Source of the DNA: Vulcanimicrobiota bacterium
Lineage (GTDB): Bacteria > Vulcanimicrobiota > Vulcanimicrobiia > Vulcanimicrobiales > Vulcanimicrobiaceae
Assembly: GCA_019235995.1 (NCBI GenBank)
Contig: JAFAJV010000028.1
Span: 1 to 64,000, forward strand
Length of the DNA: 64,000 bases
Direction of reading: 5' to 3'
In this document: positions 15,643-17,422 of the stretch, in pieces
Numbering within the stretch: the first letter of the stretch is position 1
How the letters are laid out: every line of letters begins with the position of its first letter
Notes under the pieces: generated by a model
The model's database searches: none
What the model was told of the DNA's origin: nothing
Seen by the model: only the letters and a program-made list of their open reading frames with translations
Program-made: the position numbers and the translations under genes

Positions 15643-15847
15643 GGAACCCGTTGGGTTATGGTCATGCGCGCTGTTGGGCACGCCGCGGCGGTAGGCGCCG
15701 TGTCAAACCCGAAGGGCTGAGGTAGATCTCGGATGATTTTCTTGTCGCTCGGTCGGTCACAGAGCTCTGCTGTGCTCCCTCCCTCGCTCCTAAAATTCAT
15801 CCGAAATCTACCTCAGCATCGCACATGAGCATAACCCGACAGGCTCC
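15643..15847. repeat. nested inverted-repeat element between PHP and alkyltransferase genes
   Basis: This stretch holds no gene and contains two nested inverted repeats. The inner pair is 15716-15740 (starting gctgaggtagat) and 15792-15817 (ending atctacctcagc), with only two or three differences over about 25 bases. The outer pair is 15643-15673 and 15817-15847, sharing gggttatg and tcatg blocks with about 25 of 31 bases matching. The loop contains a further short palindrome (cacaga...). It could fold into a long RNA hairpin that ends the sigma/anti-sigma transcript, or be a small miniature element with terminal inverted repeats. No second copy was seen in the window. Confidence 0.6.
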
Positions 15848-15871: not shown

Positions 15872-16603
15872 CTAACGCCGGTAGCCCTCCATTTCGAGAA
15901 GACGGGCCTTCATCTCGATGCCGTAATAATAGTTGTGCAGTTCGCCGGACGAATCCACGACGCGATGGCACGGAAAGAGCAGCGGCAGGGGATTGCGCGC
16001 CATCACGCGCCCGACGGCACGCGCCGCCCGCGGCCGTCCGATCTGCGTGGCGACCCACGCGTACGAACGCACCTCACCCGGGGGGATGCGCGCCGCGGCG
16101 CGCAGCACCGCCTGTTCGAACGGCGTGAGAGCGCTGATGTCCACGATCGCGTCGTCGATTGTCCACGTGCTGAAGAATTTCTCGAGGGCCACAACGAGCC
16201 AAAGCGGCGCGTCGCCGGGAACGACCTCGCGGCGCAGTCGCCTCCCGGCGCGCGCGATCACCTCGTCGAGCGGCTCTCCGGTGTCAAGGCTGACATAGGC
16301 GATCCTATGGTGCTTAAAGCCTACGAAGACTCGCCCGAGCGGCGTCGCGACGGCGGACAGGACGATCGGCGAGTGCCCCTTGCCCTTGAGCGCGGCAATG
16401 TGCTGGATGACCTTCTTCGCCAAGTCGCAGGACGGTTCTGGGCGCGGCAGACAGGAGAGACAATACGCCACGCCCTCGTACTGTTCGTACATGTCCTGGC
16501 AAGAGGGGCAGGCGCGCAAGTGCACGTGGACGGTTTCCTTGAGCGAGGCCTGACACTCGCCGCGGAGCTCGTCCCAGAGCGCCTCGACGTCACGACAACG
16601 CAT
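15872..16603 (-). CDS. zinc-finger anti-sigma domain fused to O6-alkylguanine-DNA alkyltransferase
   Basis: A 243-residue fusion. Residues 1-44 form an anti-sigma zinc finger with ligands spaced as Cys3, His28, Cys32 and Cys35 (HVHLRACPSC), the ZAS pattern. After a linker with further cysteines (48, 51, 59), residues 78-243 are an Ogt/MGMT suicide alkyltransferase: the Arg finger in RAVGR (195-199), Asn204 in RNP, acceptor Cys212 in PCHRV and Glu239 in LEMEG are all conserved, so repair activity is expected. I chose ATG 16603; AAGGAG lies 9 bases upstream inside the sigma gene, and the 14-base overlap couples its translation to the sigma factor. Likely role: holds the ECF sigma factor inactive and senses DNA alkylation. 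The coupling of repair to sigma release is inference. Confidence 0.88.
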   Translation of the reverse strand: MRCRDVEALWDELRGECQASLKETVHVHLRACPSCQDMYEQYEGVAYCLSCLPRPEPSCDLAKKVIQHIAALKGKGHSPIVLSAVATPLGRVFVGFKHHRIAYVSLDTGEPLDEVIARAGRRLRREVVPGDAPLWLVVALEKFFSTWTIDDAIVDISALTPFEQAVLRAAARIPPGEVRSYAWVATQIGRPRAARAVGRVMARNPLPLLFPCHRVVDSSGELHNYYYGIEMKARLLEMEGYRR

Positions 16604-17258
16604 GCATGGGGACTCCTTCGGGAGAAAATCGTCCGATCTGCGGTCCGAGGATACGCCGTAATATGCGCACCGCCCGATGGACGTGGGATTTGACCGTGCC
16701 GATCGGCTGATGAAGAATCTCGGCGATTTCGGGGTGGCTGCGGCCCTCGATGAATCGGAGCGTCGCGGCCGCGCGAAGGTGCATCGGCAGCTGCAGGAGC
16801 GCGCGCTCCACCAGGGCGATCTCGGTGTTTTGCTCGACGATCGCCTCGGGCTGCGGCGGCCCCTCGTTGGATTCGCGTAGAATGGCGTCCGGGTCGGCCA
16901 GCGCGTCGAGCGCGACATTCGTCGGGCGCTTGCCCCGGAGCCGGTTGCGCGTCACATTTAGCGTGATCGTGTAGAGCCAAGGCTGCAAGCGCAGGTCCGC
17001 CCGTTGTTCCGGCGACATCTTTCCGAGAGCGCGATACGCACGCACGAAAGCGTCCTGAACGATCTCTTCGGCGTCCTCGCGGTTCCCCGTCATGCGCAGG
17101 GCGAAACCGTACAGCCGCCGCTGATAGTCGTCCACGATGGCCTCGAAGTTTGCAGGAGTCGGAGCGCCGTCGCCGCGGGTGTGAGACCGGGCGGGCCGCT
17201 CCGGCGTTCTGGCTGATGGCACGTAAACTCCCGTAAGGAGTGGTGCGAGCGCGCTCAT
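16590..17258 (-). CDS. ECF-type RNA polymerase sigma factor
   Basis: Alternative sigma factor of 222 residues containing only regions 2 and 4. Region 2 spans about residues 38-110 (YGFALRMTGNREDAEEIVQDAF and RLQPWLYTITLNVTRNRLR), and region 4 spans about 150-205 with the helix-turn-helix GRSHPEIAEILHQPIGTVKSH. The first 35 residues are poorly conserved, so a later start is possible. The gene overlaps the zinc-finger alkyltransferase by 14 bases, the usual arrangement of an ECF sigma factor and its anti-sigma partner. Upstream I found a GTGAAAC sequence near 17294-17300 (minus strand) but no convincing -10 partner, so autoregulation is plausible but not shown. Confidence 0.9.
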   Translation of the reverse strand: MSALAPLLTGVYVPSARTPERPARSHTRGDGAPTPANFEAIVDDYQRRLYGFALRMTGNREDAEEIVQDAFVRAYRALGKMSPEQRADLRLQPWLYTITLNVTRNRLRGKRPTNVALDALADPDAILRESNEGPPQPEAIVEQNTEIALVERALLQLPMHLRAAATLRFIEGRSHPEIAEILHQPIGTVKSHVHRAVRILRRILGPQIGRFSPEGVPMHALS

Positions 17259-17422
17259 ACAGTGCCCCGGACCACCACTGCTAGGGCCGTGGTTTCACGC
17301 TCGCGGCAAAAACTCCTCAGCAGCGTCCCGGCGCCAGGCGGCGATCGCAGGGGTTTGCGGCTTCGCTTCTAAAGCACGGCCATGGCGCTTTTGCTGGGCC
17401 GCCCGGCCCGGACCTGATACCG

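Follow-up and report, generated by a model that had tools for sequence, protein, structure and literature searches.

Envelope damage, oxidants, light and metals are all signals for which sensing sigma/anti-sigma pairs are known. The anti-sigma factor RsiW, partner of SigW, belongs to the zinc-containing class I. In the parts of the class I survey drawn on here (PMC7406223), helix 1 of these anti-sigma factors contacts region 4 of the sigma factor, helix 4 contacts region 2, and about 35% of the class are soluble; the earlier note's remark that zinc anti-sigma (ZAS) proteins normally carry a membrane helix or a ligand-sensing domain is, by this figure, slightly too strict.

The window, by which we mean the whole stretch of 64,000 nucleotides analysed, encodes an ECF sigma factor and, from an overlapping gene, a protein in which a domain of the class I type is fused to a complete alkylguanine-DNA alkyltransferase (AGT; Table 1). 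From its sequence features, we consider it probable that this operon is a self-contained adaptive-response circuit, a one-shot switch set by alkylation.

Table 1. Coordinates of the sigma/fusion operon in the window and of oxygenase genes at type II loci
Feature	Coordinates	Strand	Basis
ECF sigma factor gene, 222 aa, regions 2 and 4	16590..17258	-	Pfam and NCBIfam matches
Anti-sigma/alkyltransferase fusion gene, 243 aa, stop codon within coordinates	15872..16603	-	Pfam/NCBIfam matches and orthologues
Sigma/fusion gene overlap, 14 nt	16590..16603	-	Overlap of equal length at nearly all orthologous loci
Zinc anti-sigma domain, residues 1-70 (C3, H28, C32, C35), predicted fourth helix about 59-74	16394..16603	-	zf-HC2, RsiW 5wuq and 3hug_B profile matches, low-confidence helices
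AGT, residues 80-243, both sub-domains	15875..16366	-	PF01035/TIGR00589, structure model, Foldseek
Cys212 codon, predicted alkyl acceptor in PCHRV	15968..15970	-	100% conserved in 73 distinct orthologues
-35-like element TGAAACC of sigma operon promoter	17291..17297	-	GAAAC/GCAAC core in 52/52 distinct upstream regions
-10-like element GGTC, 11 nt before sigma ATG	17270..17273	-	Motif match; function inferred
PF09859 oxygenase genes near type II	L104 5289-6038; L107 2605-3339; L109 2115-2831; L110 876-1565		Pfam scan/similarity

The sigma protein has regions 2 and 4 (Sigma70_r2 at residues 42–111, E = 1.7e-16; Sigma70_r4_2 at residues 149–198, E = 1.1e-13; Pfam) without other sigma70 domains, which is the domain content of an ECF factor; it also exceeds the cut-off of TIGR02937 (sigma70-ECF), and its top NCBIfam model is SigW. 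Its N-terminus, MSALAPL, is kept as M[S/T]ALAPL among orthologues. In the fusion protein, zf-HC2 matches residues 6–36 slightly under the Pfam curated cut-off (E = 0.0015), and PF01035 matches residues 161–240 far over it (E = 4.4e-30). The 14-base overlap between the two genes that the earlier note had described is confirmed, and from this arrangement translational coupling is likely. Just downstream of the fusion gene lies a 25-nt inverted repeat (92%; arms at window positions 15716–15740 and 15793–15817, 52 nt apart), with no second copy within the window and no Rfam match; it may be a terminator or a small mobile element.

Whole-genome searches covered 149 genomes, comprising 103 of the window's order and 46 others of the phylum. 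Of the 103, 93 carry the fusion in full length (residues 1 to about 242), at 46–90% identity from end to end, and every one of the 58 order genomes with completeness of 90% or more and contamination of 5% or less matches it at E ≤ 1e-25; because of this distribution, the fusion is a product neither of chance nor of mis-assembly. Among the ten order genomes without a full-length copy, five have a piece that is partial or at a contig end, and the five with nothing at E ≤ 1e-25 are all at most 88% complete. At the same threshold, none of the 46 phylum genomes outside the order has a match. The named relatives that carry the fusion are Candidatus Eremiobacterota metagenome assemblies. The earlier note had said that a fusion never found beside ECF genes elsewhere would count against its reading; an ECF gene in fact immediately precedes the fusion in 88 of 91 loci, the three exceptions being contig ends, and these neighbouring ORFs are 69–95% identical to the window sigma factor and nearly always overlap the fusion gene by 14 nt. 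The pair of sigma factor and fusion is near-universal in the order and under strong constraint.

Other neighbours of the pair are also conserved, namely a PHP-type phosphatase, an EF-G-like GTPase, a pcp-like peptidase and hypothetical proteins; none of them is a repair gene, and they look like mere synteny. The nearest relative in the class with a similar AGT (G129, L257) has no adjoining ECF gene. Among plasmid records, none reaches 80% coverage of the fusion, and in the ten top matches the AGT part alone is aligned. One contig publicly labelled Rhodospirillales (L052; G062:C8) holds the Eremiobacterota gene pair and seems identical to a genome in the window's family; its label is probably wrong.

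The ZAS pattern Cys...H-x3-C-x2-C carries exactly the numbering that had been proposed, counted from the ATG at 16603, and C3, H28, C32 and C35 are invariant in 73 distinct orthologues; R2, W10, D11, L49, L52 and H68 are likewise strictly conserved in this N-terminal part. For a profile of residues 1–75, the best solved relative is RsiW (5wuq; E = 2.3e-4), aligned over residues 11–69 and so through helix 4; second is 3hug_B (E = 0.06), which we take to be the M. tuberculosis RslA anti-sigma domain. AlphaFold places helices at residues 3–16, 21–31, 33–41 and 59–74, with pLDDT under 50 and from a shallow alignment. On reading of the sequence no membrane segment is seen in the fusion protein, and the NCBIfam RsrA model scores far under its cut-off (16.9 versus 62.5 bits).

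A domain of this kind could itself be the sensor, responding to disulphide stress as in RsrA and ChrR and freeing the sigma factor, with the AGT carried along as an effector for repair. The H-x3-C-x2-C element is invariant, a further pair, C48-x2-C51, is present in about 84% of orthologues, and the class I survey, in the parts drawn on, describes soluble zinc-binding anti-sigma factors as often being redox sensors (PMC7406223). The same parts of the survey, however, have RsiW, the closest solved relative, binding its sigma factor independently of zinc (PMC7406223). Nine orthologues have lost the C48/C51 pair and, in the relatives that we call type II (below), the whole zinc site is missing, and for these reasons the explanation is weakened; we regard it as unlikely.

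The AGT half is the complete Ogt/MGMT domain that the earlier note had recognized. Y181, N204, P211, C212, H213, R214, V215 and E239 are 100% conserved and R195 99% conserved (73 distinct proteins), and TIGR00589 exceeds its NCBIfam cut-off. The AlphaFold model (about residues 80–240) has a pLDDT of about 85–95 over most of its length; its top Foldseek match is M. tuberculosis OGT (4wxd; E = 1.7e-11), and human MGMT and E. coli Ada-C are also matched. Because all the named active-site residues are kept, alkyl transfer by the fusion is expected. No helix-turn-helix (HTH) family, AraC-type included, is matched in the fusion protein in Pfam or NCBIfam, and the Ada zinc-binding domain (PF02805) is absent both from this protein and from its genome (G000). 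The same genome encodes three further AGT-domain proteins, so that the alkylation response would be no monopoly of the sigma/fusion system. One of the three (L002; G000:C99) is apparently an AraC-type HTH regulator fused to an AGT, that is, Ada without the zinc domain.

Release of the sigma factor need not involve covalent alkylation if reversible docking of the AGT on alkylated DNA pulls the anti-sigma part away. The DNA-binding residues of the AGT are conserved alongside the catalytic ones, as docking would have it, but so, in every orthologue, is the acceptor Cys, which a pure binder could lose. Alkyltransferase-like proteins have indeed lost theirs.

A promoter candidate, TGAAACC-N17-GGTC, spans positions 17270–17297 on the reverse strand of the window. 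The pattern GAAAC[C/T]-N14-18-GGT is found upstream of the sigma gene in all 52 distinct regions in its relaxed form and in 46 in its strict form, shuffled sequences matching at 0.1% and 0.02%, respectively. The columns flanking the GAAAC core are far less conserved, and conservation of the core is therefore not mere relatedness. The -35-like element resembles TGAAAC, the SigW-type -35 consensus. The conserved ECF-type promoter is, like the anatomy, conservation and linkage of the operon, a matter of direct observation, and it is evidence that the operon may be autoregulated; given the short distance between the -10-like element and the ATG (window 17256–17273), the transcript is predicted to be nearly leaderless.

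When the strict motif GTGAAACC-N15-17-GGTB was sought in 18 genomes of the genus, the promoter of the operon itself was the one site that clearly recurred; the remaining matches are mostly singletons, at a rate near that of the reversed-pattern control. The strict regulon is thus predicted to consist of the operon only, with no other repair gene. With a relaxed leaderless pattern, a promoter with a similar -35 recurs before cysK in ten genomes of the genus, as sensing of disulphide stress might lead one to expect, but its -35 drifts (GCGCAAC, TGCAAC) in genomes whose operon promoter stays constant. Because of this independent drift, cysK was rejected as a regulon member, and its promoter probably belongs to the regulon of another ECF factor. 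The cysK promoter reads TGAAACG-N16-GGGTTAA and is near-leaderless in about ten of the genus genomes (L218, L219, L204, L205, L225 and L209, the last being G000:C69:13409-13449). In five genomes, the relaxed pattern also finds TGAAACA-N16-GGTCTAAT directly before a gene for a small secreted carboxypeptidase-like-repeat protein (L197, L216, L217), and a single good match to the sigma-operon promoter lies close before the ATG of a pirin-like gene (L143; G021:C170:22820).

An autoregulated operon for which no further regulon target is firmly found would also suit a plain repair enzyme under its own sigma factor, with the AGT tethered to RNA polymerase through the sigma contact or with the zinc domain as a leftover. 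A leftover would hardly keep all its zinc ligands, R2, W10, D11, L49, L52 and H68 so strictly, and tethering is at odds with the class I contacts, which, in the parts of the survey drawn on, cover the polymerase-binding face of region 2 (PMC7406223); we give this explanation little credence in either form.

Further evidence for the alkylation switch comes from a sister system. In the 149 genomes, the next-best relatives of the window sigma factor adjoin another AGT gene, with a sole exception (L112). In this type II system (the window pair being type I), the gene of a sigma factor about 39–49% identical to that of the window slightly overlaps, or is separated by a small gap from, a downstream gene whose product has 253–262 aa. 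This product starts with a short helix region, continues with a full AGT with PCHRV and ends in an Ada_Zn_binding domain, in which the cysteines of C-x3-C and C-x2-C are invariant (ten aligned proteins). The N-terminal helix may be anti-sigma-like. Type II occurs in about 17 genomes from both families of the order, 15 copies being near full length and two fragments (L103-L119, L258). It lacks every zinc-domain cysteine of type I and keeps ECF factor and AGT, so that an ECF sigma factor, a helix-4-like segment and an AGT are common to both types, with the zinc domain confined to type I and the Ada domain to type II. Since each of these two domains is type-specific and the AGT is shared, the comparison points to the AGT as the likely sensor of the sigma/anti-sigma switch. 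An Ada zinc domain could provide an additional DNA contact, in line with release by docking, but the sister system repeats both alkyl acceptors of Ada and not merely DNA-binding domains; together with the invariant acceptor Cys of type I, this leads us to rate docking without alkyl transfer as quite improbable. Type II is plausibly independent support for a switch operated by alkylation.

In four genomes, a PF09859 gene neighbours type II (two scanned, E = 1e-71 and 1e-75; two by clear sequence similarity). In the Pfam description, the family is a 2OG-Fe(II) oxygenase with damaged DNA as its substrate, and these neighbours are predicted to be DNA-demethylating oxygenases. No match to the type I operon promoter was found ahead of type II sigma genes; three f2 type II loci carry a candidate promoter, TGTAACGG...GTGTTTC. 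Several type II loci also have an ORF for a tiny single-helix membrane protein (…VWNDDAERRMLR…) that overlaps or precedes the sigma gene. At one locus (L258, 2769-3572), the type II AGT keeps PCHRV without several of the usual AGT residues near the Arg finger, and is possibly a binder or sensor only.

In the AGT tree, the fused AGTs of both types share a single clade (SH-aLRT 98), with 29 Ogt, Ada and HTH-AGT proteins from the phylum falling outside it. The sigma factors of the two types also cluster, but on long branches and joined by one other ECF factor; the unpaired paralogue L112 is placed inside type I, and a grouping of solely types I and II was rejected in a constraint test (p = 0.004). 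We therefore rely on the AGT tree. The paralogue itself (L112, 3168-3962) is an ECF sigma factor 56% identical to that of the window that has no anti-sigma/AGT partner and lies beside a universal-stress-like protein.

We infer from these features that the fusion binds the sigma factor, accepts alkyl groups and releases the sigma factor on alkylation. In an undamaged cell, the N-terminal domain would hold the sigma factor as other class I anti-sigma factors do, region 4 being contacted by helix 1 and region 2 by helix 4. The AGT half would scan DNA, and an alkyl group would move irreversibly to Cys212. Alkylated AGTs are known to be changed or destabilized. Alteration or destabilization of the AGT domain would then weaken or destroy the anti-sigma half, through conformational change or loss of the whole protein, and the free sigma factor would transcribe its own operon from GAAAC...GGT, yielding more sigma factor and fresh repair/anti-sigma protein. 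With the lesions gone, unalkylated fusion would build up and recapture the sigma factor, making the response self-terminating. Type II would follow the same scheme, with the Ada-type zinc finger added as a second alkyl acceptor or a DNA-docking part. The central claim of the earlier note, an anti-sigma factor with an alkyltransferase sensor beside its ECF partner, is strongly supported by the constant ECF neighbour, the invariant catalytic residues, the apparently autoregulatory promoter, the relationship to RsiW and the paralogous ECF system with both Ada acceptors.

On balance, we lean towards a wider view, namely a new class of DNA-damage response: a repair domain joined to an anti-sigma factor takes up an alkyl group in a suicide reaction, and an ECF sigma factor is thereby set free. 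This class would have arisen once in one Eremiobacterota lineage and split into type I, with a zinc anti-sigma domain and near-universal in an order, and type II, with an Ada zinc finger, the parts of Ada being built into a sigma switch in place of an AraC activator. If true, the adaptive response to alkylation would be wired in a second way besides that of Ada, one that abundant uncultured soil bacteria (Eremiobacterota) have conserved throughout an order; a sigma factor would be under a signal that is covalent, irreversible and usable once, and the two genes would make a compact alkylation sensor, testable with SNAP-tag chemistry (O6-benzylguanine probes).

The earlier note knew of no described system of this design, and none was found in the open-licence PMC literature that joins an ECF/anti-sigma pair with an alkyltransferase; the main ECF classification (NAR 2021) lies outside that scope and may list the pair. 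Three overviews, the class I anti-sigma survey, one on ECF factors and one on AGTs, make no mention of such a pair in the passages searched, and the text of the AGT review does not contain the word 'sigma' (PMC10779285). We found no sigma/anti-sigma pair that senses DNA lesions through a repair enzyme, and as far as could be checked such a sensor is unprecedented.

Among known systems, AGT-EndoV and C. elegans AGT-2 resemble the window protein in joining an AGT to another domain, but their partners, in the parts of the AGT review consulted, are a nuclease or a histone-like part rather than an anti-sigma domain (PMC10779285). With Ogt and MGMT, it shares the AGT fold and a complete set of active-site residues; it differs in its N-terminal anti-sigma domain and constant ECF partner, and the fused AGTs form a clade of their own with respect to the Ogt and Ada proteins of the same genomes. 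The zinc class I pairs (RsiW/SigW and those of RsrA, ChrR and 3hug_B) have the same gene order, an ECF gene and then, overlapping it, an anti-sigma gene, and the likeness to RsiW/SigW extends to the Cys3...His-x3-Cys-x2-Cys zinc domain, the TGAAAC -35 and, as predicted, a fourth helix. However, RsiW is membrane-bound and freed by proteolysis, whereas the C-terminal part of the fusion is a cytoplasmic DNA-repair enzyme. E. coli Ada is an irreversible alkyl-acceptor repair protein that controls its own transcription, as the fusion would, and both of its acceptor domains are present in the type II relatives; in contrast to Ada, the window protein has neither an AraC-type HTH nor an Ada zinc domain, and its output would pass through an ECF sigma factor instead of an activator bound at the promoter.
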